Part shown: positions 37,266 through 48,602 of the stretch, piece after piece | Position numbering within the stretch: position 1 is the first letter of the stretch | Layout: each line of letters begins with the position of its first letter | Assembly: GCF_000979455.1 (NCBI RefSeq) | Contig: NZ_JJOY01000033.1 | Coordinates: 1 to 64,000, forward strand | Source of the DNA: Methanosarcina sp. 2.H.T.1A.6 | GTDB taxonomy: Archaea; Halobacteriota; Methanosarcinia; Methanosarcinales; Methanosarcinaceae | DNA: 64,000 nt | Direction: 5' to 3' | Translations under genes and position numbers: made by a program | The notes under the pieces: generated by a model | Told to the model about the DNA's origin: nothing | The model's database searches: none | The model's input: only the letters and a program-made list of their open reading frames with translations

Positions 37266-38858
37266 GTGATTAAATTGACGAAGTCAGGAAAAGCGTCCGG
37301 AAGCAGCTTATTGCGTGGGATTGTTGGTTTAATATTTGTTTTAATAGTTATTGCTGGAATAAACGCGGGAATGAAAGACGTTCCGCTTGCTGAAGAGCCC
37401 CAACAGCCCGCACAGCAGGCAGGAGAAACAGACCTTGAGGCCCAGGTTCGGGCTGAAGGAACAGCGTCAGGTCAGGACAGCGGGCTTGCAGAAAATAACC
37501 CTGAGGATACGAATCTTGCAGATAATAATCTTGCAGACAATAGTCCTGAGGACAATAATCTTGCAGACAATAATCCTGAGGACAATAACCCTGCTAACGG
37601 TGGAAACCCGGCAGATGAAAACTTAACAGTTCATTTTCTTGACGTCGGCCAGGGAGATTCAATTCTCCTGGAATATAATGGAAAAGCTATGCTGGTAGAC
37701 GCAGGGGAACGAAACCAGGGGTCAGGAGTTTCGGCATACCTTCGCGAGCATGATATCTCCGGCATTGATTATGTTGTTGCAACCCATCCTCACGCGGACC
37801 ATATAGGCGGCATGGATGAGGTACTCAACAGCTTCCAGGTTGAACATTTCATTGACAGCGGCTTTCCGCATACCTCAAAAACCTATGAGAATATGCTGAC
37901 CAGTATTGATGAGAAAAATATTCCTTTTGAGGTAGCTAAAAAAGGAGAAGAAATCGAATTTGACCCTGCTGTTGATGTGGAAGTTCTGAACCCCGGACCT
38001 GAATACTCCGATGAGCTGAACGAAAACTCCGTGGTCCTTAAAGTAAGCTACGGGGAAGTTTCATTCCTGCTTATGGGCGATGCAGGGCTTGAAACTGAAG
38101 AAAATCTCATGAAAGCCGGGTATGCCCTGGATTCTGATATTCTCAAAGTCGGGCACCATGCCAGCCGGTCAGGCAGCGGAGGAGCCTTTATTTCAGCTGT
38201 AAGCCCCGAAATAAGCGTGATCGAAGTTGGAGCAAGCAATGACTATGGGCATCCCCATCCTGAAATTCTTGAAAGGTTACAGAAGGTTTCCAGGGTCTAC
38301 AGGACCGATCTCTATGGCTCAATTACAGTGACAACAGATGGCTCTGCTTATACAGTCACTACTCAGAAAACCGGGTCTGGAGAAGGAGTGGTCAAAACAG
38401 GGTCTGCTGAAAGTGGAGCTGAAAGTTCTTCGACTTCGATGATAACTAAAGAAAACGAACCGAAAGACTCTGAAGCCGAAGAAAACGAAGCAGAAGAAGC
38501 CGAAACCGAAGCCAAAGAAGTTGAAGTCGAAGCGAGTGTGACCTCCGGCTCTGCAGAATCAACTGTCTATGTTAGCGACCTGAGCCTGAAAGATGAATGG
38601 GTAAAGATTACAAACAGAGGGTCCTCTCCTGTTTCATTGACAGGCTGGAAAATCGAGGATGACGGCAGTAAGCACACTTACACCTTTCCTTCCTGTACAC
38701 TGGATTCCCAGACTACTGCAACTCTATATACAGGAGAGGGCGCAGATACAGCTACCGAACTATACTGGGGGTCAGGCAGCCCTATCTGGAACAACGATGG
38801 TGATACGGCATACCTCTTTGATGACAGCGGAAATATGGTCGCTTCGCTGGAGGGGTGA
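37266..38858 (+). CDS. Membrane-anchored ComEC-like metallo-beta-lactamase hydrolase with lamin-tail domain
   Basis: A 530-aa protein. An N-terminal membrane helix (about residues 17-34) is followed by a repetitive Asn/Asp-rich linker (LADNNPEDNN-type, residues 80-118). Next is a metallo-beta-lactamase fold: VHFLDVGQGDSILLEYNGKAM..DAG, then the metal motif THPHADHIGG (near 173-182), LLMGDAG, and VGHHASRSG. It resembles the hydrolase part of the DNA-uptake protein ComEC. After an acidic Glu/Ala linker comes a lamin-tail-type domain (DEWVKITNRG, LTGWKIEDDG; about 440-530). It likely acts outside the membrane. The start is GTG at 37266. The next gene overlaps its end region and encodes the usual DUF3006 partner. 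Confidence 0.9.
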   Translation: MIKLTKSGKASGSSLLRGIVGLIFVLIVIAGINAGMKDVPLAEEPQQPAQQAGETDLEAQVRAEGTASGQDSGLAENNPEDTNLADNNLADNSPEDNNLADNNPEDNNPANGGNPADENLTVHFLDVGQGDSILLEYNGKAMLVDAGERNQGSGVSAYLREHDISGIDYVVATHPHADHIGGMDEVLNSFQVEHFIDSGFPHTSKTYENMLTSIDEKNIPFEVAKKGEEIEFDPAVDVEVLNPGPEYSDELNENSVVLKVSYGEVSFLLMGDAGLETEENLMKAGYALDSDILKVGHHASRSGSGGAFISAVSPEISVIEVGASNDYGHPHPEILERLQKVSRVYRTDLYGSITVTTDGSAYTVTTQKTGSGEGVVKTGSAESGAESSSTSMITKENEPKDSEAEENEAEEAETEAKEVEVEASVTSGSAESTVYVSDLSLKDEWVKITNRGSSPVSLTGWKIEDDGSKHTYTFPSCTLDSQTTATLYTGEGADTATELYWGSGSPIWNNDGDTAYLFDDSGNMVASLEG

Positions 38859-38860
38859 AG

Positions 38861-39103
38861 ATGGAAAGCTTCAAAGTTACACTTGACAGAATAGAGGGCA
38901 GTACTGCAGTACTGCTTTTAAGGGATAATGAGTCAATAAAAATTGACTTCCCTCTTTTTTTACTTCCACCGGAGAGCAAAGAGGGTGATATACTGACTCT
39001 CAGCATTGTCAAAGACTCTCAAGAGACAGAAGCCGCTAAAGAAAGAGTGTCAACTTTACTTGATAAACTTAAAAATAAAAATAAAAATAAAGAGACAGAC
39101 TGA
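38861..39103 (+). CDS. DUF3006-family small protein
   Basis: An 80-aa protein: FKVTLDRIEGSTAVLLL, then IDFPLFLLPPESKEGDILTLSI, the standard DUF3006 pattern. These proteins regularly sit beside secreted ComEC-like hydrolases, as here, but their role is unknown. The ATG at 38861 is chosen since GGAGGGG lies just before it, within the end of the upstream gene; a GTG two codons earlier overlaps that gene's stop. The Lys/Asn-rich tail (KNKNKNK) comes from a simple repeat in the DNA. Confidence 0.85.
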   Translation: MESFKVTLDRIEGSTAVLLLRDNESIKIDFPLFLLPPESKEGDILTLSIVKDSQETEAAKERVSTLLDKLKNKNKNKETD

Positions 39104-42938: not shown

Positions 42939-43037
42939 ATGAACGCAAAACAACTTATCTATGCAATTATATCCATTGTTATCGTTTTATTGATCGCAAT
43001 CGGCATGTTCCTGTATTTGCCCAACCCCTTCATGTGA
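42939..43037 (+). CDS. 32-aa single-span membrane peptide
   Basis: A short frame with ATG at 42939 and GGAG about nine bases upstream; a TATA-like tttttatag lies near 42897. The product has Lys near the N-terminus and then a continuous hydrophobic helix (LIYAIISIVIVLLIAIGMFL, residues 6-25) ending in LPNPFM. It is too short for a family call. It faces the end of the tail-sheath gene, 60 bases away; a link, for instance a small membrane-acting peptide, is only a guess. Confidence 0.55.
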   Translation: MNAKQLIYAIISIVIVLLIAIGMFLYLPNPFM

Positions 43038-43097
43038 GCTGCTTTTTGAGGAAGAAAAAGCTTTCTCAACTCACATTTACTCTATCTCTTATCATTT

Positions 43098-44459
43098 TCA
43101 TTCCGGATCTTTTCTAGTTTGCTGCCGAATCCTGAGAATTATGAATTCTGAGGGTTTCACCGGTGCAAAACCTACAAGAATGTTGATAAATCCCTGATTG
43201 AGATCATTTTGAGTGGTTGTTTCCCGATCGCATTTTACGAAATAGGTTTCCCGGGGAGTTTCTCCGGCAAACGCACCCTGTGTGAACAGGTTGTGCATGA
43301 ATTCCGCTATGTTCAGGCGCAGTTGTGCCCACAGAGGCTCAGAGTTTGGTTCTAAGGCAGCCCACTTTGTGCCCCTTAAGAGACTCTCTTCAATGTATAA
43401 TGCGAGGCGGCGGACCGGAATATATTTCCACTCACTGGCATTGGTATCTGCTCCATCAAGGGTGCGGGCTCCCCAGATCACACTACCTCTGGCAGGAAAT
43501 GTCCGCAGGCAATTTATCCCATACCTGTTAAGCTCTCCATTTTCGGCATCTGTAAGGGTGCAGCTTAATCCACGGACCCCCATGAGGACCGCATCCATGC
43601 CTGCAGGAGCCTTCCATACACCCCGTTCTTTATCAGTACGGGCAAAAATTCCCGCAGCGGCACCGGAGGGTGCGAATTCTTCGACCTGGTTATTTTTTAA
43701 GGGATTTGCCATTTTTATGCGCGGGAAAAAAAGGGCTGCATTCTTTTTACCGGACGCCTGGGATGATACCTGCATTGACATTTGCAGTTTGTCCCGTAAA
43801 AAAGCCGTTATTGATCCGGGATCTCTGGCTTCCGCAGGAGGATCTATCAACAGCAGGGCCCTGCGTTTTTCACAATAACTGGCTGCCTTCGCAAGTGTGT
43901 CCGGAGCCAGGTCTCTGCCGAAATCCAGAGGAGGTAAACAAAGAAGGTTGAAAAGATCGGCTTTTTCAAGTGCATAGATCCCTTTCCCGGTTTCCGGGCT
44001 GGCTGGCATGAGGTCTTCGTCACGAATATCGCAGTCGCTACTACTGTAGCTACTATTATCAGAGCCGCTGCTCCCTGGAATTTCAGATCCGGAGCCAGTT
44101 TTGGAGGTCCTGTCCAAGTAAAGTTTGGAGGTCCTGCCCGAGTGAAATTTGGAGGTCCTGTCCGGGTAAAGGATAGAAGTCTTCTCAGGCGAAGTTCCCT
44201 TAACACGCACTATAACAGCGTCTCCGCCGCCATTGAGGAAATACTGATGTACGGCAAAACTCATGGTGCTCTTTTCCCAGAGTCCCCCGAAAATCAGGTC
44301 AAATTCTCCGGAGTTATGCACCGGAACAGGCTCATCTACCGGTCCTTTCAGGGCTCTTCCCACAAAAGCAGTAATTGAGGTGCTTATTCCCTTTATCGGA
44401 CGGGCACACTCGGGAACCTCTTCAACATATACCCCTGGCTGCTTGATCGCAAATGGCAT
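43098..44459 (-). CDS. Phage-type contractile tail sheath protein
   Basis: A 453-aa sheath subunit. It begins MPFAIKQPGVYVEEVPE and has TAFVGRALKGP, the standard N-terminal pattern of sheath proteins. The C-terminal domain carries VIWGARTLDG, the handle region VRRLALYIEESLLRGTKWAALEPN, and NQGFINILVGFAPVKPSEFI. Near residues 95-145 is an insertion rich in Ser/Arg/Thr with three 27-bp DNA repeats (RTSKLYLD-type). AGGAG lies seven bases before the ATG at 44459. It follows the spike gene by 26 bases. No tube, baseplate-wedge or tape-measure gene is in the window. Confidence 0.93.
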   Translation of the reverse strand: MPFAIKQPGVYVEEVPECARPIKGISTSITAFVGRALKGPVDEPVPVHNSGEFDLIFGGLWEKSTMSFAVHQYFLNGGGDAVIVRVKGTSPEKTSILYPDRTSKFHSGRTSKLYLDRTSKTGSGSEIPGSSGSDNSSYSSSDCDIRDEDLMPASPETGKGIYALEKADLFNLLCLPPLDFGRDLAPDTLAKAASYCEKRRALLLIDPPAEARDPGSITAFLRDKLQMSMQVSSQASGKKNAALFFPRIKMANPLKNNQVEEFAPSGAAAGIFARTDKERGVWKAPAGMDAVLMGVRGLSCTLTDAENGELNRYGINCLRTFPARGSVIWGARTLDGADTNASEWKYIPVRRLALYIEESLLRGTKWAALEPNSEPLWAQLRLNIAEFMHNLFTQGAFAGETPRETYFVKCDRETTTQNDLNQGFINILVGFAPVKPSEFIILRIRQQTRKDPE

Positions 44460-44485
44460 TATATATCTCCTGTTAAAAACCGAAA

Positions 44486-45106
44486 TCAAACTAAATTAAG
44501 CACCCTGCCGTTAACGGAAATATTCTTTCCTTCCAGCGAGATGCTTCCTCCCTGCCCGTTGCTGAGTTCTATTCCTTCGGAACCGATCACTATTCTTACA
44601 CCATCCGAAGTTTCCAGAATAATTTCCCCTTTTTCTGGAGTATCATTCAGCGTAATTGCAGCCCTGGATGTCTTGAAGACCTTCTTCTCAGGCTGGAGTT
44701 CCGGAATTTCCCCATTTTCCCAGAAACAGCCGCTCCAGATAGGATGATCAGGATTTCCTTCCTCAAACTCAACCCAGACATTTGAGCCTGCGGGCGGAAG
44801 GGCAAATAGCCCGACATCCATTCCTGCATAAGGCACAGAGGGCATTGCCCAGCCAGTATCTACTCCTGCCAGTGCAGGGACCAGAACCCTTAGTCTGCCC
44901 CTCCCCTGCGGGTCAGTATTTTCCACAACTTTACCCCGGTATTTCCCGAAATAACTTCCGGATGCAGGAGACGTTGTACTGGTTGTAACCGCAGGATTTC
45001 CTGTTGTAACGCCGCACTTCAGTTCAGGCACGTCCGATGAAAAAGGTTTTTGTGCTTTTTTTCCGACTGCTGCAGGAAATACCTTCGAAACAATAAAAGC
45101 AATCAT
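44486..45106 (-). CDS. gpV/VgrG-like baseplate spike protein
   Basis: A protein of about 206 aa. The OB-fold spike base is clear: YFGKYRGKVVENTDPQGRGRLRVLVPAL, then AMPSVPYAG, FALPPAGSNVWVEFEEGNPDHPIWSG. The C-terminus has the repeating beta-helix needle pattern (GVRIVIGSEGIELSNGQGGSISLEGK). In contractile injection systems this protein forms the membrane-piercing tip. ATG at 45106 is preferred; a TTG at 45145 is possible, and neither has a convincing ribosome site. A hydrophobic start (MIAFIVSKVFPAAV) is unusual for the family. The next gene downstream is the sheath. Confidence 0.88.
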   Translation of the reverse strand: MIAFIVSKVFPAAVGKKAQKPFSSDVPELKCGVTTGNPAVTTSTTSPASGSYFGKYRGKVVENTDPQGRGRLRVLVPALAGVDTGWAMPSVPYAGMDVGLFALPPAGSNVWVEFEEGNPDHPIWSGCFWENGEIPELQPEKKVFKTSRAAITLNDTPEKGEIILETSDGVRIVIGSEGIELSNGQGGSISLEGKNISVNGRVLNLV

Positions 45107-45357
45107 AACTACTTCTTGTATTTCTAAGTTTAACAACGTTTTCAAAGTGTATACTGTTTGATTTCACCTCGTCAGTCCTGTATAGTTATCCAGCCCCATG
45201 ATTTTGTCGATTTTAATCTACTCTTCGATTTTAATCTACTCTTTGATTTTAATCTACTCTTTGATTTTAATCTACTCTTCGATTTTAATCTACTCTTCGA
45301 TTTTAATCTACTCTTCGATTTTAATCTACTCTTCAATTTTAATTTGCACTACATTTT
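45107..45357. repeat. 18-bp tandem repeat (45209-45352) inside the sheath operon
   Basis: gattttaatctactcttc repeats seven times with c/t variation at the last base, plus one degenerate copy, between the VWA gene stop and the spike gene start. It separates the operon into two halves and could hold a promoter or message-processing site. Confidence 0.88.
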
Positions 45358-46989
45358 TTACTCAGCTTCCCGATTCTCACATTTAATCAGTTTCACTCTG
45401 CCGCCCGTACCCTCCGAATCCTGTTCCATCTCCACAATATATGTGTAATCCGAGATTTCCGAAAGCCCTCCTGCCCCGCCGCCTCCAATAATCAGTGTGT
45501 AGACCTTTGCGTTATACTTCTTCTTTGCCTCTTCCCAGCGAGCCAGAACCAGCTCGTCAGAGATTTCGGATCTGCCGTCGGTGATAAAAAGCAGGTCTGC
45601 ACCCTGAAAATCCTTTTCCTTAAGGGATTTAAGGCCTGAAGCAAGCGCGGTATTGAAATCCGTCCCGCCGCCAAATGTGTACAGCAGGAAGTTCAGGAAT
45701 TTCTCGGACATCCTTTTCTTGCTGCTGAGCTCTATTTCCAGGTGCTGGCTGGTGGAAGCAAAAAGAATAACCTTCATATCCCGCTGCTGGGAGAGCATCA
45801 GCTTTGCCATGGCAAGCACTGCAGACTTGGCAAGGGTCTGTGGGGTCCCGTGCATGGAACCGGAGGTATCGACGAGCACAATCATAGGCCCTCTGGGCTT
45901 TATGCGGGGAGGACCTGTATAGTGTTTGCCAAGCAGCTGGTAGCTCAGGAGTTTTCCTTCAAGCATATCAGCATAGAATTTCCGCTTCAGAGCCGGGTTA
46001 AGGAGTTTTGCGGCTTCCATTGGCAGGAGGTTATTTATCGAGTCTGAAAACCGCACAGTCTGGATCCTGTTTTTTCCAAAAGGAGAGTAGCGTATGCGGT
46101 CAGCGGGGGGGTCAAATTCCCGCCTGCCGATAAAATTCACGATTCTTCTGAGGTCAGGGTTTTTTTCAAAAAAAGCCGAATAATTTTTCAGCATCTTAAG
46201 CTGGACATAAAAAGGCTCTTTTTTAAGCTCTTTTACGGAATAACTCCAGTTCCTGCCAGGGAAGAGAAGGGCAAGAGTATCAAAAAGGTCCAGGTTTTCT
46301 TCCATTTCAGAGATAAATTCCTGCATCCTGCAGTACAGCCCTTCCAGCATCCCGTCAAGAAAACTCTGGCAGCAGTCTTTCTGCATGAAACTGAGGACGG
46401 ATTCATAAATGTCGGATTTTCCGGAAACCGGGGAAGGGAGCTGAGAATTCCGGACTGACAAATCCTCTGAATTCCTGCTTTCCCAGAGAAGGAGGGTTTG
46501 TTTAAGGATTTTTTCAAATTCCCTGAGAATGGCTTCTGTTTCGGCATCAAACCCCTTAAATAATCCTGTTTTCGAACCTCCGTCCCGGGCCGCTGAAAAG
46601 CGTTCCATAAGGTCGTAGATTAGAGGAAGAAGAAGCTTCAGGCAGGCAATTCCTGCTCCTCTGCTCCGTTTTGCAATCTTTTGAAGCCCGGGCCACGGCC
46701 TTGAGTTTCTCAGGGTAAGAAAAATAGGGTAAAATGCCCCGAAAAGTCCTATGAACCTTTCAGCATCTTTTATTTCATACGGCTGCTCGAAGAGGATTTC
46801 AAGGGCGATCACTTCGGCGATTTTCTCGCGTAGAGAACGGGGAATCGTGCGGGGGTAAGCAACAGTGCTTCTCAGCTCTCCTTCAAGCAGGGAAGCTGTC
46901 TGTTTCCGGACAGAAAGAGCCTCGTGCCAGAGCCAGTTTCTGGAAAAAAACGAGTAAGATTCGGGAGAGGCTTTATCCAGATTACTCAA
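45358..46989 (-). CDS. VWA-domain protein, ViaA/CoxE-like
   Basis: A 543-aa protein. A helical N-terminal part (residues 1-350) is followed by a von Willebrand A domain with the metal-ion site DTSGSMHG near residue 370, a conserved T in FGGGTDF and D in LLFITDGRSEIS. It ends with LIIGGGGAGGLSEISDYTYIVE. Such proteins work with MoxR-type ATPases; the MoxR gene lies 38 bases upstream on the same strand. The pair resembles RavA-ViaA of enteric bacteria in layout. Here it probably assembles, activates or disassembles something encoded downstream, by position the sheath and spike. Confidence 0.9.
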   Translation of the reverse strand: MSNLDKASPESYSFFSRNWLWHEALSVRKQTASLLEGELRSTVAYPRTIPRSLREKIAEVIALEILFEQPYEIKDAERFIGLFGAFYPIFLTLRNSRPWPGLQKIAKRSRGAGIACLKLLLPLIYDLMERFSAARDGGSKTGLFKGFDAETEAILREFEKILKQTLLLWESRNSEDLSVRNSQLPSPVSGKSDIYESVLSFMQKDCCQSFLDGMLEGLYCRMQEFISEMEENLDLFDTLALLFPGRNWSYSVKELKKEPFYVQLKMLKNYSAFFEKNPDLRRIVNFIGRREFDPPADRIRYSPFGKNRIQTVRFSDSINNLLPMEAAKLLNPALKRKFYADMLEGKLLSYQLLGKHYTGPPRIKPRGPMIVLVDTSGSMHGTPQTLAKSAVLAMAKLMLSQQRDMKVILFASTSQHLEIELSSKKRMSEKFLNFLLYTFGGGTDFNTALASGLKSLKEKDFQGADLLFITDGRSEISDELVLARWEEAKKKYNAKVYTLIIGGGGAGGLSEISDYTYIVEMEQDSEGTGGRVKLIKCENREAE

Positions 46990-47027
46990 AAAACCGGCTG
47001 AATCTTCCGTATCAACACCTCATTTGC

Positions 47028-48602
47028 TCATCTAAGCTTGAATCTGGACCCGAGCCCTTTCATAAAACCGCTGGCATTGCTGCCTGAATCAGGGACCTGG
47101 ACTTTTGCTTCCAATTTTGCGGCGTGGGGGTCGGAATATCCTGATTTTGCAGACCTGAACTCTCCGGACCTGAACTCTCCGGACCTGAATTCTCCGGACC
47201 TGAATTCTTTATTCTGCAAGCCCAGCAGCTCTGCGATTTCGCCTATCAGGACTTCAGTTCCGGACAGCTGTGCACTTCCGGTGTCATGCAGGAGCAAGGC
47301 TTCGTTTCGGTCCGAAATTGAAAGCCAGATATTTGCATCCATCAGGTTTCCGAGCAGCTCCTTTTCTTCTTCAAGCCGTTGTTTTACTCTGTTTACTCTG
47401 GCAGCCAGGGTTTCGAATTCCTTTTCAAAAACCTCTCTCTGAATTTGAGACAGGGTGTTTTTCTTTCCCGCACTCTCATGGAGATAATCAATTTCCCTTA
47501 CCAGGTTATCATAAGGATAAATCCTCGAATTTCCTTCCTGCCTTAGAGTATAGCTGTGGTTCGGGCAGGCTGTATGGTGGACCTCCAGGTTCTCCCTAAG
47601 CTGAAATTCCTCCCCGCAGCTGTCGCAGATAACTCCAACGGAAAGTTCGTTTTTCAGGGCAATATTAAGAGCTGTTTTCAGGTCTTCAGCATCAAGGCGA
47701 AGTTTTTCCGTATTTGTTCCGCCGGAAACAACGAGTTTAAAGACCGTTTTCCTGATGGTTTCTCGCTCTTCGGGCAGGTTCCAGAGCATGTGCTGGAGCA
47801 AAAGTGCCATTGTCCTGTCAACAGCCGGACACCCGCTGCTGCAGGCTGCAACTTTCAGGACCTGGACAATTCTTTTCCAGCGCCGGTCCGAAATTTCAAT
47901 TTCCTGCAGCCGGAGGTTTCTCCGGAGTTCCGTGATTATTACTTCAACATCAGGATCAACAGGCAGGGAGTTTGCGCTTTTGCGGAGCTTCTCGATTTCC
48001 GAAACCGGAAGGCTTGCAGTGGGCTTGAAATCTTCAGGTTCCCTGAAAAGAAGGCTTTTGAAGTTTTCATCGTCCTGGATATATGAGAGCCTGTACCTGA
48101 ACAGGAAACGGTCATAAAGAGCTTCCAGGCTTTCATCCTCTTCCGGAAGTTCGTTTGAAGCCCCGAAGACTGAGAGGAGCGGTACATCCACAATTTCTCT
48201 TCCGTTATGGTATTTTCTTTCGTTCAGAATTGTCAGGAGGCTGTTGAGGATAGCGCTGCTTGCCTTAAAAATCTCATCCAGCAAGGCAATATGAGCGGTC
48301 GGGAGGCAGCCTTCGATATTTCTCCTGAACTCGTCTTCTTCAAGGGCTTTTAAGGAAAGCGGCCCGAAGAGCTCTTCAGGAGTTGAAAAGCTTGTTAAAA
48401 GGTAATTATAGAAGTTTCCGCCTTCAATTATCTGGCAGATGCTCCTGGCAAGCTGGGTCTTGGCTGTACCGGGCGGTCCCAGAAAGAGCAGATTTTCGCC
48501 TGAAAGGACGGCGAGAAGAGAGCCGTTGATCTCAGCTTCGCGTTCTTTAAAATAGTCTGTAAATTCGGATTTTATCTCGAGAAGAGTTTCTTTCAGGTTC
48601 AA
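47028..48602 (-). CDS. MoxR-family AAA+ ATPase, RavA-like
   Basis: A 524-aa AAA+ protein. Walker A is LGPPGTAKTQ (near residue 57), Walker B HIALLDEIFKASSAILNSLL (near 107), and sensor 1 FGASNELPE (near 150). The C-terminal half carries a cysteine/histidine cluster (CDSCGEEF...HHTACPNH, about residues 328-352) that could bind zinc and is not general in MoxR proteins, and a coiled coil. Near residue 470 FRSGE repeats three times, from a tandem DNA repeat. It is the first gene of the four-gene minus-strand unit MoxR-VWA-spike-sheath. Confidence 0.9.
   Translation of the reverse strand: MNLKETLLEIKSEFTDYFKEREAEINGSLLAVLSGENLLFLGPPGTAKTQLARSICQIIEGGNFYNYLLTSFSTPEELFGPLSLKALEEDEFRRNIEGCLPTAHIALLDEIFKASSAILNSLLTILNERKYHNGREIVDVPLLSVFGASNELPEEDESLEALYDRFLFRYRLSYIQDDENFKSLLFREPEDFKPTASLPVSEIEKLRKSANSLPVDPDVEVIITELRRNLRLQEIEISDRRWKRIVQVLKVAACSSGCPAVDRTMALLLQHMLWNLPEERETIRKTVFKLVVSGGTNTEKLRLDAEDLKTALNIALKNELSVGVICDSCGEEFQLRENLEVHHTACPNHSYTLRQEGNSRIYPYDNLVREIDYLHESAGKKNTLSQIQREVFEKEFETLAARVNRVKQRLEEEKELLGNLMDANIWLSISDRNEALLLHDTGSAQLSGTEVLIGEIAELLGLQNKEFRSGEFRSGEFRSGEFRSAKSGYSDPHAAKLEAKVQVPDSGSNASGFMKGLGSRFKLR

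Follow-up and report, generated by a model that had tools for sequence, protein, structure and literature searches.

The 64,000-nucleotide stretch of Methanosarcina sp. 2.H.T.1A.6 DNA analysed here (the window) carries a gene for a spike and a gene for a minimised contractile sheath, both lying downstream of a MoxR-VWA pair of RavA/ViaA type. These four genes are not one machine. The best explanation, which we consider probable, is that spike and sheath form an autonomous two-gene cassette, left over from a bacterial-type eCIS and kept by selection, that the upstream pair is unrelated to it, and, more tentatively, that the sheath self-assembles without a tube and has a role other than injection. 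The locus is real and odd; it is not a new MoxR-driven injection system, and its wider interest lies in a class of tubeless mini-sheaths.

Identification of the four genes and their products

The features of the locus are the following:

43098..44459, minus strand: contractile sheath, minimised (453 aa), with the N- and C-terminal arms retained and the insert domain missing
44486..45106, minus strand: gpV/VgrG-tip-like spike (206 aa), with an OB domain and a beta-helix and without a hub/GPD domain
45207..45343, no strand: 18-bp tandem repeat array of 7.6 copies, between the VWA and spike genes
45358..46989, minus strand: ViaA-like VWA protein with the MIDAS DTSGS; start codon uncertain
47028..48602, minus strand: RavA-like MoxR AAA+ ATPase with the Walker A motif GPPGTAKT and a CxxC...HH...H motif; start codon uncertain
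43045..45375, minus strand: cassette segment (sheath plus spike), missing from sibling genomes

The original prediction of a MoxR ATPase, a VWA protein, a gpV-type spike and a contractile sheath on one strand was confirmed for all four genes, on the minus strand and at these coordinates, and the profile matches of the four proteins are far beyond chance. The sheath matched PF04984 (E=1.8e-8), PF17482 (6.6e-8) and the PHROG tail sheath (1.2e-54), and the spike matched PF04717 (3.7e-21). The Phage_sheath_1 domain by which an eCIS sheath is recognised was found in the 43098..44459 protein, and the gpV component of the eCIS spike complex is present; no GPD domain was identified in the spike protein or beside its gene. 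The true start of the sheath gene is likely the ATG at 44459, which has AGGAGA upstream, and that of the spike gene is likely the ATG at 45106.

The VWA protein matched PF13519 (4.7e-11) and MoxR matched bpMoxR (2.7e-56). Both resemble the E. coli RavA-ViaA pair, whose models they matched at 6e-67 (RavA) and 7e-36 (ViaA), and a RavA-type MoxR gene adjoining that of a ViaA-type VWA protein with MIDAS is what defines such a pair. However, the two proteins fall below the NCBIfam equivalog cut-offs (226.9 of 681 and 124.4 of 500 bits), and the pair here differs from that of E. coli in a C-terminal part with the CxxC...HH...H motif. The Cys/His cluster had been pointed out as an addition to this MoxR; it is indeed there, but it is general to MoxR orthologues and nothing special to the locus. 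Only CxxC...HH...H is common to these orthologues; the third Cys of the cluster is retained in the closest siblings, and elsewhere that position is mostly H or Y. With respect to the ternary MoxR-vWA-beta-propeller system, the bpMoxR domain is present and no propeller domain was found among the neighbouring proteins scanned.

PADLOC assigned no defence family to the sheath, the spike or the VWA protein and gave weak matches only for MoxR, and Rfam gave no match at the locus. Besides the 18-bp array at 45207-45343, short repeats were also seen inside the MoxR and sheath genes. A tiny membrane-protein-like ORF (MNAKQLIYAIISIVIVLLIAIGMFLYLPNPFM; 42939-43037, plus strand) is convergent with the cassette, and a similar sequence occurs at the empty site of the sibling genome G094. 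Farther away, at 37266-39103 (plus strand), a metallo-beta-lactamase protein with a lamin tail domain adjoins a DUF3006 protein.

Search for partner genes in the whole genome

The window belongs to a 4.07-Mb draft genome (the source genome), which is 99.9% complete and in which genome-wide searches found one sheath and one gpV. The four-gene block has no gene for a tube, a baseplate or a ruler next to it. The first proposal, of an orphan or reduced module, was borne out for sheath and spike, which are both orphaned and reduced. It had also been proposed that the set might be completed by genes elsewhere, and that the genome be searched for tube, gp25 and baseplate J homologues. This search was run and none was found. 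Gp25 was absent from the source genome, and a gp19-type inner tube, Baseplate_J and CIS_tube were absent from both the source genome and Methanosarcina sp. KYL-1 (G096, locus L102), the only other carrier of the four-gene block; these are draft assemblies, and the tube searches were based on Pfam, which a tube diverged beyond Pfam would escape. The full loci of G046, G084 and G008, used as positive controls for tube, Baseplate_J and CIS_tube, were all detected. Completion by genes elsewhere was thus not upheld.

Two identities were rejected. That of a prophage or phage tail failed on the lack of accompanying tail genes, for which HMMs were run within the window and the tube and baseplate families were searched genome-wide. 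That of an eCIS failed because gp19 tube, gp25 and Baseplate_J are missing genome-wide and a Pvc16-type cap and a Cdc48-like AAA are missing from the window (HMMs from relatives). Searches of phages and plasmids with sheath or spike gave no cassette-like match, the plasmid matches not having been gone through singly. Against viral contigs, the sheath found phage-like sheaths and eCIS-like fragments and the VWA protein found no relatives.

Distribution of the MoxR-VWA pair and of the cassette

The MoxR-VWA pair was found in 17 further Methanosarcinaceae genomes, none of which has the cassette beside it; 12 of them gave no sheath match, and in five (G007, G008, G009, G084 and G094) a sheath locus lies elsewhere. 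In three sibling species (G082, G075 and G094), the alignment with the window covers the VWA gene and the downstream flank but not the sheath-spike segment, which is cleanly missing; in G094, 39 bp replace window positions 43045-45375. No relics of sheath or spike were detected in the 19 relative regions searched. VWA and MoxR are kept across the genus independently of the cassette, which is carried by only two Methanosarcina species. In KYL-1 it occupies the same place, directly after the VWA gene. As KYL-1 and the source genome are far apart on the MoxR-VWA tree, there were either two gains of the cassette or one gain and several losses. Its base composition resembles that of its neighbours and gives no sign of very recent arrival.

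These data bear on the reading in which the four genes make one machine and the MoxR-VWA chaperone pair assembles or remodels a sheath-spike particle, as was originally suggested. Adjacency on the same strand and in the same order in two species speaks for it, MoxR and VWA being about 77-79% identical between them, and so does a precedent from Acidianus two-tailed virus (PMC3893208), an archaeal virus in whose tail formation the RavA-subfamily MoxR p618 is believed to act with p892 (PMC3893208; PMC7159879). The gene distribution nevertheless disfavours this chaperone model here: the pair stands without sheath and spike in the 17 relatives, the cassette is a clean presence/absence segment, and neither MoxR nor VWA was found near the 79 non-Methanosarcina sheath loci. 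Moreover, the gap between the VWA and spike genes (about 250 nt here and 436 nt in KYL-1) has no significant conservation. We consider one machine quite unlikely, and the pair most likely serves another client. The adjacency, which persists in two species only, leaves room for an acquired link between pair and cassette. A conserved leader upstream of the spike gene is not claimed, as its alignment score was reached by 23 of 500 shuffles. A literature search for MoxR together with contractile injection and sheath returned no paper. A second ViaA-like VWA paralogue (G000:C33:53285-54868) is encoded in the same genome, and it is also widespread across the genus.

Origin of the cassette and closest known systems

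A sheath homologue is present in 21 of the 112 genomes of the family, and most of these loci are eCIS with tube, spike, gp25, Baseplate_J and CIS_tube. Relatives do have full sets of tail genes, although these lie at different sites and their sheaths are of another lineage. In a quick tree of 97 sheaths, with some long branches flagged, the window and KYL-1 sheaths form one clade (support 100), which is nested among the bacterial-type eCIS sheaths and does not belong to the Methanosarcinaceae eCIS clade. Apart from KYL-1, the best matches of the spike are bacterial-type spikes (46%, 43% and 40% identity), the Methanosarcinaceae eCIS spikes reaching 29-35%. Since the sheath tree and the spike identities agree, both genes probably derive from one bacterial-type eCIS. 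Systems of this kind (sheath-tube-T4_baseplate-Pvc16-AAA order; for example L104-L108, L164 and L033) share with the cassette the sheath core, the gpV spike and the phylogenetic origin, whereas the cassette is without tube, baseplate, cap and AAA and its sheath has lost the insert domain. The Methanosarcinaceae eCIS (for example L037 and L040) have homologous sheath and spike and the same host family but, unlike the cassette, they are complete loci at other sites and their sheath belongs to a separate clade. L033 (7856-19862) lies in the genome of a related methanosarcinal archaeon and includes three eCIS_core proteins, which are possible cargo.

The AlphaFold models are of moderate confidence (pLDDT 68.5 for the sheath and 67.2 for the spike, of which residues about 50-206 are mostly well formed). 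The leading Foldseek matches include Streptomyces CIS and H. borinquense sheaths for the sheath model and CIS/VgrG/pyocin spikes for the spike model; as the top sheath matches have a modest TM-score to the query (0.40-0.51), these comparisons confirm the family only. The best solved relatives in structure and sequence are the CIS sheaths of Streptomyces coelicolor (8bky, 9gtp and 8bl4) and Halogeometricum borinquense (9ezm), both of which, unlike the cassette, belong to full sheath-tube machines.

Selection on sheath and spike

Between the source genome and KYL-1, dN/dS and dS were 0.15 and 1.4, respectively, for the sheath, 0.32 and 1.1 for the spike, 0.09 and 1.7 for VWA, and 0.10 and 1.4 for MoxR, the dS of the two cassette genes being near that of the flanking genes; a dS near 1.4 is close to saturation and the ratios are consequently rough. 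The differences concentrate in third codon positions. Sheath and spike have both kept intact frames, and the comparison of the two species shows purifying selection on each; under neutral drift, intact frames would not be expected at such divergence. The unbroken frames are also not those of prophage debris, the other origin that had been considered for the sheath gene.

The selection data weigh as well on the possibility that sheath and spike are a vestige: the final two genes remaining from an eCIS that decayed, with no more than residual selection acting on them. The long branch of the sheath, the lack of the cassette in all close siblings and the broken frame of a related lone sheath in G056 would fit such a remnant. 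Nevertheless, frames kept intact with dN/dS of 0.15-0.32 at dS above 1, the retention of exactly one sheath and one adjacent spike at the same site in two distant species, and the retention of solo sheaths in several Reyranella-type genomes, with dN/dS of about 0.25-0.29 between close pairs, make a vestige rather unlikely. Alternatively, a different contractile particle, be it a phage, a satellite or an eCIS whose genes lie elsewhere or arrive by infection, might use the two proteins in trans as spare parts; both are structural, and the sheath has conserved N- and C-terminal arms. This we regard as very improbable: tail genes of the tested families are absent from the source genome (tube, Baseplate_J, CIS_tube and gp25) and from KYL-1 (tube, Baseplate_J and CIS_tube), and no phage sheath among the matches listed exceeds about 33% identity, these matches also being partial.

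Possible role of a tubeless sheath

In the autonomous cassette that we favour, the sheath would self-assemble into a tubeless polysheath-like polymer, which the trimeric spike could possibly tip or nucleate. Such a polymer would have a task in the cell other than injection, either as a scaffold or by obstructing incoming contractile tails. Polymerisation of the mini-sheath by itself, with the spike perhaps as its nucleus or tip, and an action other than injection are the least certain part of the explanation, and we put them forward tentatively, as something rather doubtful. The proposal is made by analogy with the phage sheath gp053 of FV3, which forms tubes or polysheaths without other viral proteins (PMC6357053). 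The gp053 polysheath is a recombinant product and not a natural stand-alone gene.

A selected sheath without detectable tube would mean that the sheath is useful in its own right, and the cassette would offer a natural system of minimal size in which to study sheath assembly. It suggests that parts of contractile injection machines can persist alone, perhaps with another job. It is also a caution that a sheath-plus-spike locus need not be an injection system, nor be joined to a neighbouring chaperone pair. To our knowledge, a contractile sheath has so far been understood only as the outer component of a sheath-tube machine, and a literature search of partial coverage found no paper on stand-alone sheaths.

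Tubeless sheaths in other genomes

Among the best 80 sheath loci from 84,980 genomes, a tube adjoins the sheath in 76; the other four are those of KYL-1, Rhodospirillales URHD0017, Reyranella soli and an acidobacterial MAG, and no gp19 tube was found anywhere in the last three genomes. Solo mini-sheaths of Reyranella type were found in five genomes (L178:10016-11140, L155:6495-7712, L281, L282 and L283), with 46-86% identity, at differing sites and with no spike or tube nearby. In addition, two genomes of another methanosarcinal genus (G040 and G056) carry a sheath gene, although gpV, tube, Baseplate_J and CIS_tube are all absent genome-wide. This lone sheath is intact in G040 and a pseudogene in G056, from which it follows that some solo sheaths decay.

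All solo sheath lineages have lost the insert domain, and the solo mini-sheaths sit on long branches. Of 172 alignment columns, each conserved in at least 93% of 75 tube-bearing sheaths, nine solo sheaths retain 118-134 (69-78%) and the tube-bearing sheaths at least 89.5% (mean 98%), in a comparison that, like the others between solo and tube-bearing columns, was made after the data had been seen. D373 is conserved in all tube-bearing rows and replaced in all four solo lineages, while the divergent Reyranella-type member G492 retains it. These losses in the aligned residues would fit the relaxation of a common constraint, tube binding for example. Solo mini-sheaths, with or without spike, may make up a functional class that recurs in archaea and bacteria, has evolved on several occasions from contractile injection systems through the loss of tube and insert domain, and acts without injection; we hold this generalization possible but do not favour it.

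By eye, the lone sheaths of G040 (L034:9580-10794) and G056 (L035:9383-10141) lie beside coenzyme F430 biosynthesis-like genes, and the short solo sheath of the acidobacterial MAG (L181:4618-5799), near a contig end, has genes for a sensor kinase and an NtrC-like regulator upstream of it.
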